Assembly: GCA_020073585.1 (NCBI GenBank)
Contig: JAIQEV010000008.1
Location: forward strand, 1 to 64,000
Direction of reading: 5' to 3'
DNA length: 64,000 nt
DNA from: Terriglobia bacterium
GTDB taxonomy: Bacteria; Acidobacteriota; Terriglobia; Acidiferrales; UBA7541
The position numbers were made by a program, and so were the translations under genes. Positions 12,798 through 61,464 of the stretch are shown here, one piece after another (positions within the stretch are counted from its first letter, which is position 1; each line of letters starts with the position of its first letter). Below the pieces are notes generated by a model that was not told the DNA's origin, did no database searches, and worked only from the letters and a program-made list of their open reading frames with translations.

Positions 12798-13288
12798 TTG
12801 TCGCAGCAGATTCATCGCCACTGGTAATTCTGGCAAAGCTCGGCTGCTTCGACCTCCTCAATAGGCTCTTTCCACGCATCTATATCTCCACGGAAGTTCA
12901 CCATGAAGTGGTCGTCGCTGGCGCTGGCCTGCCCGGAGCATCGGAAGTTGCGAAAGCGGAATGGATCGAAGTAAAGAAGCTTCAAAATCGGGCGGACTTG
13001 CTGGCGGCCCGGGAAAAATATGCTTTGGGTCTTGGGGAGCTCAGCGCCATTCTGCTGGGGAAGGAACTCCATGCGAATGCGGTGCTGCTCGATGATTACA
13101 ATGCGCGCAAACTCGCCAAAGCGGAGGGCCTCCAAGTTCGCGGCAGCGTGGGTCTCCTCGAAACTTTCTACTTGCGAGGCCACTTACCCGATCTTCGCGC
13201 CGCCTTTCGGCTGCTCCTGGCGCACAGTTATATTGACCAGCGGCTGTTAGACCTCCGGCTACGAGCCTTGGGCCTTCCTCCGCTCTGA
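12794..13288 (+). CDS. DUF3368 PIN-like toxin
   Basis: A 164-residue protein of the PIN-like DUF3368 family, predicted to be a metal-dependent RNase toxin. Acidic positions expected of PIN folds are visible: aspartate in the N-terminal IVAADSSPLVILAKL, glutamate in LGLGELSAILLGKE near 80 and the aspartate pair in AVLLDDYNARKLAKAEGL near 100. It starts with GTG inside the antitoxin stop and is translationally coupled. The target RNA cannot be told from sequence. Confidence 0.85.
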   Translation: MIVAADSSPLVILAKLGCFDLLNRLFPRIYISTEVHHEVVVAGAGLPGASEVAKAEWIEVKKLQNRADLLAAREKYALGLGELSAILLGKELHANAVLLDDYNARKLAKAEGLQVRGSVGLLETFYLRGHLPDLRAAFRLLLAHSYIDQRLLDLRLRALGLPPL

Positions 13289-13355: not shown

Positions 13356-13397
13356 TTGACAAATAGTACGACTATGATAACATATAAAGTTTATGTT
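13356..13397 (+). promoter_or_regulatory. sigma70-like promoter with overlapping inverted repeat
   Basis: TTGACA at 13356-13361 is followed after 16 bases by TAACAT at 13378-13383. An inverted repeat AACATA-N7-TATGTT spans 13379-13397, covering the -10 and the likely start site, as an operator would. It lies in an AT-rich island and faces the cysteine desulfurase gene about 400 bases away. The 13289-13791 gap holds no convincing gene; it contains this promoter, three direct repeats and three hairpins. Confidence 0.5.
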
Positions 13398-13477
13398 GAC
13401 CCCCTCCACCCCCGCCGCCAACTCCCATCAACCACTTCCCGCACACCCCGCCCCGCTCCCTTCCCGCCCGCGCAACC

Positions 13478-13576
13478 CCTTTCCAATCTGCACTTACACA
13501 AACTGCGCCTCTAACCTCTTTATCATCTGCACTTCCAAAACAAACAACTTAAAACCCTTTGGAATCTGCAGTTACA
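13478..13576 (+). repeat. three direct repeats at exact 39-base spacing
   Basis: Copies of a 21-base unit start at 13478, 13517 and 13556. The shared core is ATCTGCA followed by CTTNCA or GTTACA, preceded by a CTTT block. Units 1 and 3 agree at 18 of 21 positions; unit 2 is more divergent. The 18-base spacers are unrelated. The exact period suggests regularly phased protein or RNA binding sites in the desulfurase leader. Three degenerate copies and no cas genes argue against CRISPR. Confidence 0.6.
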
Positions 13577-13612
13577 AAAAACCCGAGGGGGTGGGGGTCT
13601 TATCGTTAACTT

Positions 13613-13681
13613 GCCCCGATGCAATCGGGGCCAGATACCCGATGAAGGGTATCTGTCCTGCCTGCTCCGGCTTTGCCGGAG
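13613..13681 (+). other. three consecutive hairpins in the nifS leader
   Basis: Three perfect stems follow one another. They are GCCCCGAT-GCA-ATCGGGGC (13613-13631), CAGATACCC-N6-GGGTATCTG (13632-13655) and CTCCGGC-TTT-GCCGGAG (13665-13681). None is followed by a T-run, so they are not plain terminators. If the promoter at 13356 is used, all three lie in the untranslated leader of the cysteine desulfurase mRNA. Confidence 0.55.
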
Positions 13682-13791
13682 AGCGACCATCGGGAGCCGA
13701 AGGACCTCTCTTTCTCCTCCAACCCTGCCCCTCCTCCGCCACTCCTCCCTCGCCACTTCCCGCTCGCTCCTGCTATCCTAAATACACAGCC

Positions 13792-15111
13792 ATGAAGCGG
13801 ATATACATGGATTACAACGCCACCACGCCGGTCGAGGCGGGGGTGCTCGAGGCGATGCTGCCCTACTTCTCCGCGGAGTATGGGAATGCCGCGTCCATCC
13901 ACAGCTTTGGACAGAAGGCGCGGGCAGCGGTGGAGGCGGCGCGGGAAGCGGTGGCGGCGCTGATCGGGGCGCGGGCGCAGGAGATCGTCTTCACCAGCGG
14001 GGGGACGGAGTCGGACAACCACGCGATTTTCGGGATTGTCGCCGCGGTGAGCGGCGCCAGGAAGAATGTTGCGGCAAGCGGCGCCGGGAAGGATATTGCG
14101 GCGGGCAGCGGAGAACGAGATGCCGGGCTCCCGACCGGGTCGGGACAAGTTCCGCCCAGCGCTACACATGTAATCACTACCGCCGTCGAGCATGAGGCGG
14201 TGCTGAACGCTTGCCAGGCGCTGGAAAAGCAGGGCGTGGCGGTGACGTATCTGGCGGTGGACGGCGCGGGGCGCGTGGACCCCGAGGCGGTGCGGCGGGC
14301 GCTGCGGGCGGAGACGGCGCTGATCACCGTGATGCACGCCAACAACGAGCTGGGGACCGTCCAGCCGATCGAAGAGATTGGCAAGATCGCGGCCGAGGCG
14401 GATGTGTACTTCCATACGGACGCGGTGCAGAGCGCGGGCAAGATTGCGGTGGACGTGGAGCGGCTGGGCGTGGACCTGCTCTCGCTTTCGGGGCACAAAT
14501 TCTACGCGCCGAAGGGCGTGGGCGCGCTGTACATCCGGCGGGGGACGCGGCTGCGGCAGTTGCTCTATGGCGGACGGCACCAGCACGGCTTCCGTCCGGG
14601 GACGGAAAACGTGCCGGGGATTGTGGGGCTGGGCAAAGCGGCGGAGATGGCGCGCGCGGCGCTGGCGGAAGACGCGCGGCGGGTGGGCGCGCTGCGCGAC
14701 CGGCTGGAGCGCGGTCTGCTGGAGCGGGTGCCGCAGGCGCGCGTCAATGGTATGCATGACCGCAAAGCGGTCAATGGTATCGGTGGCCACGGGGGCGGCG
14801 GCGCGGCGCGCACACCGAACACGACGAACATTCTGTTTCCCGGCGTCGAGGGCGAGGCCCTGGTGATCGCGCTGGACCTCAAGGGGCTGGCGTGCTCGAC
14901 GGGGGCGGCGTGCTCGTCCGGGGCGGTGGAGCCGTCGCACGTGCTGACGGCGATCGGGTTGCCGGCGGGAGAGGCGCGGGCGAGTTTGCGGTTCAGCCTG
15001 GGGCGGCATACGACCGAGGCGGAAGTGGATTTCGCGCTGGAGGTGGTGCCGGGGGCGGTGGCGCAGTTGCGGGAGCTGTCGCCGGTGTATGGGAGAAAAG
15101 TTAACAGTTAA
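13792..15111 (+). CDS. cysteine desulfurase (NifS/IscS type) with in-frame insertions
   Basis: A PLP enzyme that takes sulfur from cysteine for Fe-S clusters or tRNA thiolation. Start ATG 13792 gives MKRIYMDYNATTPV, the standard N-terminus, and 439 residues against about 380-400 usual. The PLP lysine is in LSLSGHKFYAPKG and the catalytic cysteine in ACSTGAACSSGAVEPSH. Two insertions explain the extra length. One at about 14050-14165 holds a 27-base tandem repeat (SGARKNVAA, SGAGKDIAA) and a palindrome. The other at about 14744-14777 adds nine residues around HDRKAV, from a GACCGC palindrome. Catalytic motifs are intact. mnmA follows at once, suggesting a role in tRNA 2-thiolation. Confidence 0.9.
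   Translation: MKRIYMDYNATTPVEAGVLEAMLPYFSAEYGNAASIHSFGQKARAAVEAAREAVAALIGARAQEIVFTSGGTESDNHAIFGIVAAVSGARKNVAASGAGKDIAAGSGERDAGLPTGSGQVPPSATHVITTAVEHEAVLNACQALEKQGVAVTYLAVDGAGRVDPEAVRRALRAETALITVMHANNELGTVQPIEEIGKIAAEADVYFHTDAVQSAGKIAVDVERLGVDLLSLSGHKFYAPKGVGALYIRRGTRLRQLLYGGRHQHGFRPGTENVPGIVGLGKAAEMARAALAEDARRVGALRDRLERGLLERVPQARVNGMHDRKAVNGIGGHGGGGAARTPNTTNILFPGVEGEALVIALDLKGLACSTGAACSSGAVEPSHVLTAIGLPAGEARASLRFSLGRHTTEAEVDFALEVVPGAVAQLRELSPVYGRKVNS
14050..14145 (+). repeat. 27-base tandem duplication plus palindrome inside the desulfurase gene
   Basis: Two 27-base units (14050-14076 and 14077-14103), each starting AGCGGCGCC, differ at 5 positions. They are followed at 14129-14145 by TCCCGACCGGGTCGGGA, a near-perfect palindrome. 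All of it lies in frame inside the cysteine desulfurase gene, in a loop before the ITTAVEHEAV segment where homologues are short. Confidence 0.7.
14758..14772. repeat. GACCGC-AAA-GCGGTC palindrome inside the desulfurase gene
   Basis: A 15-base palindrome with 6-bp arms and a 3-base loop, the same sequence as copies at 17039 and 31087. It is flanked by an 11-base direct repeat, GTCAATGGTAT, at 14743-14753 and 14769-14779, as if 26-27 bases had been inserted with a duplication. Confidence 0.75.
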
Positions 15112-15127
15112 CAGTTGACAGTTAAAA
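15100..15127 (+). repeat. four tandem heptamers across the nifS stop
   Basis: GTTAACA, GTTAACA, GTTGACA and GTTAAAA follow without gaps. The nifS stop codon TAA (15109-15111) lies inside the array. Copy-number slippage would change the last few residues of the desulfurase and the distance to mnmA. Confidence 0.75.
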
Positions 15128-16943: not shown

Positions 16944-17011
16944 CCCGCGGGCCCCGCTGCACGGCGGGCCCTAAACCGCTGAGCTGCTCGATCCCGAAAA
17001 ACTGCCGGCGC

Positions 17012-17080
17012 GACCGCGAAGCGGTCAGCCATCTGAGTGACCGCAAAGCGGTCAACTGCAAGCGTGACCGCGAAGCGGTC
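17012..17080. repeat. three GACCGC-RAA-GCGGTC palindromes at 27-base period
   Basis: The 15-base palindrome occurs at 17012-17026, 17039-17053 and 17066-17080, exactly 27 bases apart. The middle base triplet is GAA, AAA, GAA. The 12-base spacers differ. It lies between the YtxH and DUF948 genes, 2 bases after the YtxH stop codon in transcription order. Seven copies are seen in the window in all. Confidence 0.85.
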
Positions 17081-17082
17081 AA

Positions 17083-17431: not shown

Positions 17432-19273
17432 CTATTCCGCAGCAGAGCGGTTCCGGGCGTCCTGCAGATGCTGCAGGATTTTTTCGGCGCGCTTGCGCGG
17501 CAGGATGCGGCTGAGGGCGTCCAAGCCGGCGCGGCGCAGGTTGGCGACGCTGCCGAATTCGCGGAGGAGCTTCTGCGCGGTGCGCGGACCGACGCCGGGA
17601 ATTTCGCCGAGGACGGTGCGGGTCTGGCGCTGGGCGCGGCGCTGGCGGTGGAAAGCCACGGCGAAGCGGTGGGTTTCGTCGCGGATCTGCTGGACGAGGT
17701 GCAGGACGGGGGAGTGGCGATCGAGGACGATGGGCTCGTGCTCCCGGCCGCAGACGTAGAGGATTTCTTCTTTCTTGGCGATGCTGACAATAGGCTGGTT
17801 GATAATCTGCAGGGATTCGAGGGCCTGAGCGGCGGCGTGGAGCTGGCCGATTCCGCCGTCGATGAGCACCAGGCCGGGAAGAGGCTGCTTCTCTTCCAGG
17901 AGGCGGCGATAGCGGCGGGAGACGGCTTCGCGCATGCTGGCGAAATCGTCGTTGAGGACGGGCGCGCCGTCCGGGCCGGGAACGCCGCGAATGATGAACT
18001 TGCGGTAGCCGGATTTTTTCATGCGGCCGTTTTCCCAGACGACCAGGGAAGCCACGGTGTCGGTGCCCTGGATGTGCGAGACGTCGAAGCTCTCGATGCG
18101 CTGGGGCGGCTCGGGAAGATCGAGAGCGCCCTGCAGGGCTTCGGCGATGGCGCGGGAGGTGGGCTTGAGCACGCGGAAGCGCTGCGTGAAGGAGTGCTGG
18201 GCGTTGGTTTCCACCAGGTCGAGGAAGGCGCGCTTGGGGCCGCGTTGCGGGGCGAGGATTTCCACTTTGTGTCCGGCGCGCTCGGAGAGGGTGTCCTCGA
18301 GGAGCGCGCGGTCCTCGAAATCGGCGGGGACATGGATGGCGCGGGGGAGATATTCGGCTTCGAGGTAGAGCTGCTTGAGGAGCGCGGGGACGAATTCGCG
18401 GGGGTCGAACTCGGCGAGATCCTCCCAGTAGAATTCGCGGCGGTCCACGACGCGGCCGCCGCGCAGGTGGAAGAGATTGGCGGCGACGAGGGGCGGCTCG
18501 GCGTAGCAGGCGAGAACGTCGGTGTCGTCGCCCTGGGCGGCGGCGATGCGCTGGCGCTCTTCGATGTCCTCGAGGGTGCGGAGAAGATCGCGGTAGGCGG
18601 CGGCCTGCTCGAAGCGCTCTTCGCGGGAAGCGGCGGCCATGCGCGCTTCGAGGCTTTTGATGAGGTCGTGGCGGCGGCCTTCGAGAAACATGCGGGCGTC
18701 GCGGGCGGCTTCGGAGTAGCGCTCGTCGGAGGTGAGGCCGGGGACGCAGGGGCCGAGGCAGCGCTGGATGTAGTGCTGCAGGCAGGGGCGCGGATGGGGG
18801 CGGGTGAGGTCCACGGTGCAGGAGGGGACCTGGAAGCGCTTGTGGATGAAATGGAGGATGCGGCGGGCGAGGCTGGAGGGAAAATAGGGGCCGAAGTAGA
18901 GCGAGCCGTCTTTCTTGATGCGGCGGGTGAAATAGACGCGGGGATATTTTTCCGCGGCGGTGAGCTTGATGTAGGGATAGGTCTTGTCGTCGCGGAGAAG
19001 GACGTTGAACTTGGGGCGGTACTGCTTGATGAGGTTGTGCTCGAGGGCCAGGGCCTCGCGCTCGTTGCCGACGACGATGGTTTCGAGGTCGGCAATTTCG
19101 CGGACCAGCGAGCCGGTCTTGGCGTCGGCCCAGCGGGATTCGAGGAAATAGGAGCGCACGCGGTTGCGAAGCACGCGCGCCTTGCCAACGTAGAGGACGG
19201 TTCCCGCGGCGTCCCTGAAGAGGTAGACGCCCGGGCTTTCGGGGAGGCCGGCGGCTTTTTGCTGCGGGTCCAT
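17432..19273 (-). CDS. uvrC: excinuclease ABC subunit C (UvrC)
   Basis: UvrC makes both incisions flanking UvrAB-recognised DNA damage. The 613 residues show the N-terminal GIY-YIG nuclease (GVYLFRDAAGTVLYVGKA, then LRNRVRSYF), a UvrB-binding UVR region near 200 (LEARMAAASREERFEQAAAYRD), an RNase-H-like domain (ESFDVSHIQGTDTVASLVVW, LVLIDGGIGQLHAA) and tandem HhH motifs (LGEIPGVGPRTAQKLLREFG). Length is typical. uvrA is at 33-36 kb on the same strand but in a different operon; uvrB is not in the window. Confidence 0.97.
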   Translation of the reverse strand: MDPQQKAAGLPESPGVYLFRDAAGTVLYVGKARVLRNRVRSYFLESRWADAKTGSLVREIADLETIVVGNEREALALEHNLIKQYRPKFNVLLRDDKTYPYIKLTAAEKYPRVYFTRRIKKDGSLYFGPYFPSSLARRILHFIHKRFQVPSCTVDLTRPHPRPCLQHYIQRCLGPCVPGLTSDERYSEAARDARMFLEGRRHDLIKSLEARMAAASREERFEQAAAYRDLLRTLEDIEERQRIAAAQGDDTDVLACYAEPPLVAANLFHLRGGRVVDRREFYWEDLAEFDPREFVPALLKQLYLEAEYLPRAIHVPADFEDRALLEDTLSERAGHKVEILAPQRGPKRAFLDLVETNAQHSFTQRFRVLKPTSRAIAEALQGALDLPEPPQRIESFDVSHIQGTDTVASLVVWENGRMKKSGYRKFIIRGVPGPDGAPVLNDDFASMREAVSRRYRRLLEEKQPLPGLVLIDGGIGQLHAAAQALESLQIINQPIVSIAKKEEILYVCGREHEPIVLDRHSPVLHLVQQIRDETHRFAVAFHRQRRAQRQTRTVLGEIPGVGPRTAQKLLREFGSVANLRRAGLDALSRILPRKRAEKILQHLQDARNRSAAE

Positions 19274-30637: not shown

Positions 30638-31185
30638 GGCTGATTCCTGCGGCGCACCGGCGGAGGCGCTACTTCTTTCTTGGCTTTTTCGGCGTCGCTG
30701 AGGGCGTCCCGGGTGCCTTCGATGGCGTCGTCGAGATTGTCCTTGTAGAGTTCGCGCTCGGCGCCGCTCGCGGCCAACTGCTCGAGAGTGGCCAGGAACT
30801 CCTTGGAGCGCGCGATCATCAGGTCAATTCCCTGCCGGATATTTTCCTGCTTCTCCTTGCCGAGCTGGATGAGGTCGGCGGCGTCGTCCACGCAACTGAC
30901 GTAGGAATTCAGCAGGGCGTTGAGGATTTCCGGATGACGGTAGGGCGAGGGGTGGGCGAGCTCGTACTGAAATTTTTTCAGGCGGTCGCCGGCGAAAGAG
31001 AGAAAGAGCTTGATGCGCTCGTTGGGGGTTTCGGCGTCGCGGATCTTGTCGGCTTCGATGGCGGAGAGGTAGTCCTTGTTTTGTGTGACCGCAAAGCGGT
31101 CAACTTGCTGCGGCGCGGCGGCGCCCAGCAGGGGAAAGAAGATTCCCAGGAAAACAGAGAGAGCCAGGGTTCGCATACGGATCAT
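30634..31185 (-). CDS. exported helical protein with in-frame palindrome insertion
   Basis: A 183-residue protein with a signal peptide (MIRMRTLALSVFLG to about GAAAPQQ) and an all-helical mature part (IEADKIRDAETPNERIKLFLSFAGDRLKKFQYEL). It is of unknown function. Directly after the signal peptide, VDRFAVTQN (nine residues) is encoded by a GACCGC-AAA-GCGGTC palindrome and its flank, probably a 27-base insertion. It sits between another exported protein gene and the SprT-like gene, 7 and -4 bases away. Confidence 0.72.
   Translation of the reverse strand: MIRMRTLALSVFLGIFFPLLGAAAPQQVDRFAVTQNKDYLSAIEADKIRDAETPNERIKLFLSFAGDRLKKFQYELAHPSPYRHPEILNALLNSYVSCVDDAADLIQLGKEKQENIRQGIDLMIARSKEFLATLEQLAASGAERELYKDNLDDAIEGTRDALSDAEKAKKEVAPPPVRRRNQP
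31087..31101. repeat. GACCGC-AAA-GCGGTC palindrome inside an exported-protein gene
   Basis: The 15-base palindrome is identical to those at 14758 and 17039. It is read in frame as part of VDRFAVT in the exported protein encoded at 30634-31185, right after the signal peptide. Confidence 0.8.
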
Positions 31186-50743: not shown

Positions 50744-50856
50744 AACACCCGCCGCCGCAGCCGTCCGCGCCGCGCTCTCACGCCATCGCCTCTGCGCTCA
50801 CCGCGGACCATGCTTTCAAAATGCTTTAATTTCCGGCAAACGTCCGGTACCCTGTT

Positions 50857-50898
50857 CACCGCTTTGCGGTCACACAGGACGTTGTCCGCTTCGCGGTC
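50857..50898. repeat. two degenerate GACCGC-type palindromes 27 bases apart
   Basis: CACCGCTTTGCGGTC (50857-50871) and GTCCGCTTCGCGGTC (50884-50898) each differ at one or two bases from the window-wide palindrome read on the minus strand. Their starts are exactly 27 bases apart, as in the array at 17012. They lie just upstream of the Tat-exported protein gene. Confidence 0.75.
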
Positions 50899-50918
50899 GC
50901 GCATATCGAGGAGAAGCT

Positions 50919-60704: not shown

Positions 60705-61464
60705 TGATGTTCTCCTTTCGTCCCGCGTCCCTAAGCGGGCCTGCGATGAACGAATCGAAATGTCCGAGGAAGTACGTGAGTGAATCGCCTTGCTTGCGGG
60801 TGAAGTTTTCCGTCGAGTCGAGATAGTGGGCCCAGCGGAGCCGCCATTCTTCGAGCGGCACGACGGCGTGCTCTTTGAGGAACGCCTTGAGCGTTTTCCC
60901 TTCGCGGGCTCCCCAGGTCGGTGGCTGTCCGTGCTTGACGCGGTAGGCTTCATAGGCGAAGTCAAAGAAAGGCTTGTGCCGGGGATCGGCGGGTGGCGCG
61001 GTTTTCGCCGCAGGAGTTTTCATTTTTCTCTGTTCTCTATTCTCTATTCTCTTCTGAGAGGTCACATGCTCGCCCTTGTGCTCGCCCTCCTGCTCGCCAG
61101 AGAAGTACCGCAAATCGACGGGACTCGTTGAAGCTATTGCGTTTAACTGCTCGCCCTTGTGCTCGCCGTCCGTGATGAGAAATTTGTGCACCAGAATCGG
61201 GTAACAAGCATGCTTCCCGGGAGTAGGAAATCGCTTTGTGTAGTCGCCCCGGTCCAGCCGCTCGAGGAATCTGCGAGCCTTGCGCGGCGAGATCGTAAGC
61301 TCCCCGGCCAGTGCGCCCGCCGATCCGTTCCATACGCCCGTGCGGGTATCGGCCTGTGAGGTGATGTAGGCGTGGACGGCGCAATCCGCCAGAGACATAC
61401 GGCCATCGCGGATGTGCTCCCAAACGCCACGCCGCAATTGGAGAAAGCCTTTGTCTTTGCTCAC
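60637..61464 (-). CDS. phage replication initiator-like winged-helix protein
   Basis: A 275-residue protein. The N-terminal FLQLRRGVWEHIRDGRMSLADCAVHAYITSQA and LAGELTISPRKARRFLERL form a winged-helix domain as in phage replisome organisers. The middle is Glu/Lys-rich (GEQEGEHKGEH) and the C-terminal helical region (FFDFAYEAYRVKHGQPPTWGAREGKTLKAFLKEH) matches their accessory domain. The GTG start overlaps the upstream stop (GTGA). The repeated GEHKGE units near 98 and 122 are notable. Confidence 0.65.
   Translation of the reverse strand: MSKDKGFLQLRRGVWEHIRDGRMSLADCAVHAYITSQADTRTGVWNGSAGALAGELTISPRKARRFLERLDRGDYTKRFPTPGKHACYPILVHKFLITDGEHKGEQLNAIASTSPVDLRYFSGEQEGEHKGEHVTSQKRIENREQRKMKTPAAKTAPPADPRHKPFFDFAYEAYRVKHGQPPTWGAREGKTLKAFLKEHAVVPLEEWRLRWAHYLDSTENFTRKQGDSLTYFLGHFDSFIAGPLRDAGRKENISADQRTLDNLVAAGLRPAPQPN

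Follow-up and report, generated by a model that had tools for sequence, protein, structure and literature searches.

The cysteine desulfurase gene described here lies in a stretch of 64,000 nucleotides, which we call the window, and carries an extra palindromic segment in one of its loops. The relevant features of the window, with the evidence for each, are as follows:

13792..15111, + strand: NifS/IscS-type cysteine desulfurase gene, host of the insertion (open reading frame, Pfam, NifS model, alignment)
14743..14748, + strand: host GTCAAT, resembling the target motif RTCNWY, directly 5' of the insertion (G009, the sister species, has GTGAAT there; motif statistics)
14749..14793, + strand: 45-nt in-frame insertion, 15 residues MHDRKAVNG... 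in a loop (missing from G009 and from 23/23 genus orthologues)
14749..14775, + strand: one full 27-bp unit of a dispersed family (unit consensus, G009 comparison)
14757..14773, + strand: hairpin core TGACCGC-AAA-GCGGTCA (perfect 7-bp stem, 3-nt loop)
14776..14793, + strand: 18 nt, possibly the remnant of a decayed second unit (begins GGTAT like the first unit, in the 27-bp register)
17011..17081, + strand: three-unit intergenic array of the 27-bp family (two units in G009)
31086..31102, + strand: single unit core of the 27-bp family (common to G009)
50856..50899, − strand: two-unit cluster of the 27-bp family (core matches, G009 comparison)

The hairpin lies in a 572-aa open reading frame (13393-15111), whose methionine at 13792 is the likely true start according to homologue alignment. 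This reading frame matches Pfam Aminotran_5 (E 1e-77) and reaches 511.8 bits with the NifS model; since that score falls under the cut-off of 530.75, the name desulfurase applies at family level only. When 28 named homologues were aligned, lysine 237 and cysteine 375 (numbered on the 440-aa translation of 13789-15108) fell in invariant columns; both motifs are present, as the first-pass annotation had stated, and we take the two residues to be the catalytic ones of the family. In an AlphaFold model (mean pLDDT 83.6), pLDDT drops below 50 at residues 325-337, that is inside the insert (322-336) and just beyond it, in a stretch flanked by a long helix and a strand. With the catalytic residues intact and the insert in a loop modelled at low confidence, it is plausible that the enzyme tolerates it. 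The same gene holds a second 27-nt tandem duplication (window 14050-14102) in another variable loop, SGARKNVAA/SGAGKDIAA, unrelated in sequence to the 27-bp unit.

The insertion and its empty site

The first-pass annotation read the loop as VNG-MHDRKA-VNG, took it for an inserted element and proposed aligning relatives over it. The reading is correct within the 572-aa frame, and no homologue carried the segment: the 15 extra residues have no counterpart in any of 23 same-genus orthologues, where the loop is uniformly short (e.g., RVNG-GGAA-RTPN in G009), or in any of the 28 named homologues aligned, which constitute the named set (among 80 named desulfurase loci, 22 gave no loop by pattern). 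At the DNA level, G009 provides an empty site in which the 45 nt are missing. The palindrome itself is real but longer than first described, since it spans 14757-14773 and the original limits, 14758-14772, mark its inner part only; it also exceeds chance in the window, with 11 matches at ≤3 mismatches versus 0.26 expected.

The direct repeat GTCAATGGTAT does occur twice, at 14743-14753 and, 27 bp further on, at 14770-14780 rather than at 14769-14779. This spacing equals the unit length of the dispersed family described below. The repeat had been interpreted as a duplicated target, and this holds only weakly. The left GTCAAT(GG) is indeed host sequence (the VNG codons), with GTGAATGG as its G009 counterpart, but an 11-bp target duplication has to be rejected because TAT is missing from the empty site. 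The most natural interpretation of the second GGTAT is that a further unit, since decayed, begins there, which would account for the whole repeat: six of its bases correspond to the target and to the unit end, and five to the starts of two successive units. GTCAAT would then recur because the 3' end of the unit resembles its target. The desulfurase copy probably consisted of two units originally, the second having since decayed. The match past GGTAT is weak, and it is a guess on our part that the 18-nt tail is what remained of this second unit once 9 nt had been lost; slippage may also have been its source.

A dispersed family of 27-bp units

The desulfurase palindrome represents one of about 250 copies that a dispersed family has in the 4.03-Mb genome of this soil bacterium. 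At ≤2 mismatches the core was found 261 times forward and 251 times in reverse (reversed control, 1 and 0), each copy of this near-palindrome being counted on both strands, while a 19-mer with non-palindromic ends gave 125 + 122 occurrences in this genome (G000) at ≤1 mismatch, with none in the control. In 1.20 Mb of G000, TGACCGC leads the perfect 7-bp stems with 70 occurrences, the runner-up having 9.

Units were grouped over 1.20 Mb of each of the two genomes, which gave 60 clusters with 90 units in G000 (its stretches were picked partly from contigs with listed matches, and densities are not unbiased) and 64 clusters with 95 units in G009. Their consensus is approximately TNTATGYG-TGACCGC-RNA-GCGGTCA-AC, with RNA denoting a purine, any base and A in the triloop; it covers 27 bp, from -8 to +18 around the core, and is followed by background sequence past AAC. 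Neighbouring units are spaced at 27 bp in 54 of 61 cases (26 in six, 25 in one) and are co-oriented by their flanks in 59 of 61 pairs, forming head-to-tail arrays. The consensus can be read through without a stop in four of its six frames.

Both strands of the unit fold alike, at -7.0 kcal/mol (ViennaRNA, DNA parameters), and the energies do not separate the loops. Loop counts (GAA 85, AAA 51, AGA 16, CAA 9, GCA 8, TAA 6, GGA 3, TGA 1 and ACA 1) are biased towards AA, since the search pattern contained AA at that place. Loop orientation matches flank orientation in 180 of 185 units; in the other five the loop is flipped, as if the core had been inverted (e.g., at 12898-12941 of stretch L132 from G000:C48). 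About half of 11 units that G000 and G009 have in common are unlike in their first loop base, which varies more than the arms do, although this was judged by eye and the units are too few for a proper test. The commonest core includes GCGAAGC, a DNA mini-hairpin to which PMC4686876 ascribes extraordinary stability, with melting at up to 78 C. The presence of this motif in the core would suggest that one of the strands occurs as single-stranded DNA.

Across 36 genomes of the genus, the family is abundant in three (forward + reverse: G000 247, G009 261, G005 105), the other 33 having 0-16 matches; low-copy members also show unit pairs at 27 bp. There was no match in the 16 genomes searched outside the genus, no exact match to one 20-mer pattern of the unit in viral contigs, and no Rfam RNA family within the window. 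A search of literature outside subscription papers found no description of the family.

Unit-wise differences and a one-sided motif

Among 17 G000 clusters with clear synteny in G009, the script called nine shared, six empty and two partial; one of those scripted as shared (C49 92484) has 26 nt extra and was counted as absent from G009. Conversely, of 12 G009 clusters compared with G000, ten were shared and two partial. The two genomes differ by one unit at C58 62986 (net 27) and C80 37206 (27-nt gap, net 28), and by two units at C21 69808 (net 54), C48 52898 (54-nt gap, net 57) and C12 15404 (net 50). In addition, existing arrays changed by one unit at C6 17011, C80 36314 (net 27) and C61/g9b 382148 (27-nt gap, net 23-24). 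Steps of 27 prevail among these differences. Where the empty site is clean, the two alleles are 27 or 54 bp apart in length, without any longer duplication, and in most empty alleles a target-like sequence can be seen by eye before the junction (e.g., GTCTAT, TCCAT or GTCATT).

Such a motif shows in the statistics of first units, 37 of 124 of which have RTCNWY at -14 to -9 (any other offset, ≤4) and 63 of 124 have TC at -13,-12. Downstream of last units there is only background sequence, making the motif one-sided. Within arrays, positions -14 to -9 read GTCAAC, the end of the preceding unit, which itself fits RTCNWY. Spacers of neighbouring units are alike at 4.97/8 versus 3.59/8 between clusters, and near-identical neighbour spacers were seen in 11 of 61 pairs versus 1.4 expected, most pairs being clearly different; this excess over chance implies that some arrays arose by duplication. 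We think that arrays grow by both routes, insertion at GTCAAC and local duplication. No association was seen between unit orientation and GC skew (Fisher p 1.0 in G000 and 0.32 in G009), and targeting of the lagging strand is therefore not supported.

By home-made gene calls, and leaving aside 26 G009 clusters added later, 75 of 98 clusters are intergenic versus 688 of 5000 random places. The remaining 23 were called coding automatically, some of them wrongly, and such calls are rough: the gene caller even put the desulfurase region in an overlapping minus-strand ORF. A second in-gene example is at 17663-17760 of stretch L248 from G000:C64, where four in-frame tandem units encode (VDRSAVTQN)x4 in a TonB_C-domain protein. 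Other units lie inside PBP, MOSC and GH57 proteins, and these in-gene cases are less certain than the desulfurase.

Nature and spread of the element

On balance, we favour the view that a loop of the desulfurase has received, in frame, one copy of a mobile palindromic element that is REP-like and dispersed through the genome. Under this scenario, the strand with the RNA triloop would fold, when single-stranded, into a very stable hairpin, and a trans-acting single-strand nuclease/ligase, for which the Y1 HUH kind is the most plausible candidate, would attach the 27-nt unit immediately downstream of RTCNWY, leaving no long duplication of the target. As the unit end GTCAAC fits the same motif, a new unit could insert after the old one, building head-to-tail arrays at exactly 27 bp, and some copies would be added by local tandem duplication. 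Insertions within genes could be tolerated as short peptide loops (MHDRKAVN here, VDRFAVT elsewhere) because 27 is divisible by three and four frames are open. Several observations sit less well with this view: the desulfurase insert measures 45 nt rather than 27 or 54, two G009 differences amount to net 50 and 57, and the full RTCNWY fit is confined to 37 of the 124 first units. A more specific and tentative proposal is that of a self-targeting REP-like element with its own target at each unit end, so that repeated single-strand insertion would extend arrays head to tail, and with an unlinked enzyme to move it. Such an element would scatter 9-residue peptides into proteins, and hairpins to places just upstream of ribosome-binding sites.

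The family is of wider relevance, since many bacterial genomes are shaped by REP-like repeats, and those without an adjacent transposase pose the question of how they spread. Here, two sister species offer empty sites, unit-wise gains and a one-sided motif, which lend themselves to a direct reconstruction of the insertion reaction. Copies lying in frame, in turn, are instances of non-coding repeats becoming protein segments outside Rickettsia.

Insertion of the IS200/IS605 type is one-sided. The single-strand insertion of these elements, as outlined in PMC6006769, combines hairpin recognition with a short flanking target motif. We propose the like for the 27-bp family, for which both the enzyme and any excision intermediate are putative. 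According to PMC3733652, REPs are marked by GTAG or CGTC tags and are found for the most part close to the 3' ends of genes, head-to-tail dimers being rare among them. CGTC elements, which have no dedicated transposase, include RPE-4 and RPE-6 (CGTC-4 and CGTC-1), found inside Rickettsia protein genes, where they add peptides. Like these elements, the 27-bp family consists of short, mostly intergenic palindromes in high copy that sometimes fall in ORFs, and it likewise appears to lack a dedicated transposase. The desulfurase copy, being an in-frame insertion in a protein gene, parallels the rickettsial elements; these, judging from the CGTC-tag description in PMC3733652, which does not fit our 27-bp unit with its 3-nt loop, appear to differ from it in sequence, and they also differ in how long stem and loop are, in phylum and in array form.

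The alternative that we regard as unlikely, yet the least so among those considered, is that the units form a canonical REP family moved by a RAYT (Y1_Tnp) of the genus, which would make this ordinary REP biology. The unit fits in its size (27 bp, within the roughly 20-65 nt of REPs), its copy number, its hairpin and its preference for intergenic places, and 29 of the 36 genomes of the genus have Y1_Tnp genes, including the three rich ones (one in G000, three in G009, nine in G005). However, the hairpin foot has no GTAG, GTGG or CGTC, reading TGYG before the stem and AAC after it, and both location and array form depart from the REPs portrayed in PMC3733652: the 27-bp family lies near gene starts and in head-to-tail arrays, whereas REPs sit at 3' ends and favour inverted dimers. 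Moreover, no unit was found within 1 kb of the ten Y1_Tnp loci read, out of 13 in the three rich genomes (all those of G000 and G009 and six of the nine of G005), the search reaching as far as the contigs allowed; on four sides the contig ended or the stretch began sooner. In Y1_Tnp genes of the main type the inverted repeats are different ones, of the GGCGGGTGGCCC type. These genes look similar in arrangement to TIRYTs, the TIR-flanked tyrosine transposases of Acidobacteria, the same phylum, that are treated in PMC3733652, yet these inverted repeats are unrelated to the 27-bp unit. For the loci read, RAYT linkage was accordingly rejected, and since the tag test fails as well, we do not file the family as a canonical REP and read it as a new REP-like variant. 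The mobilising gene might be absent from the draft assembly (96.66% complete). The Y1_Tnp genes of G000 and G009 are themselves flanked by inverted repeats of the GGCGGGTGGCCC...GGGCCACC type, apparently their own REP-like ends.

Less probable still is that selection has spread the units because they act in cis as regulatory sites, either protein-binding operators or leader hairpins, the desulfurase copy being a stray. The 5' side points towards a gene start in 51 of the 75 intergenic clusters (control, 377/688), 26 gene starts fall within 60 bp of that side versus 8 on the other, and many clusters are common to G009, all of which would fit regulatory sites. Against this, the family is abundant in just 3/36 genus members, its presence differs recently between sister species, copies lie within unrelated genes, and the start bias may instead reflect TCC-rich complements of ribosome-binding sites serving as targets. 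Slightly more improbable again, in our view, is what the first-pass annotation implied, a miniature inverted-repeat element (MITE) that duplicates its target site when a cut-and-paste transposase moves it: it would explain the 11-bp direct repeat around the desulfurase palindrome, but neither the G009 empty site without TAT, nor clean sites elsewhere that differ by whole 27-bp units, nor the background sequence 3' of last units. Finally, it is scarcely credible that local slippage produced a 27-nt tandem duplication within the gene and the palindrome by chance, for although the repeat is tandem-like and the gene has its other 27-nt duplication (14050-14102), the same 17-mer recurs at hundreds of places with TGACCGC as the top stem, and this genome count rejects slippage as the source of the hairpin.

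Apart from the 27-bp family, the window contains short heptamer arrays. AGTTAAC is repeated 3.9 times across the desulfurase stop codon (15099-15125), a related 17-mer occurs at 22 genomic places (control, 0), and TTCTCTA forms a further array of 3.9 copies at 61026-61052.
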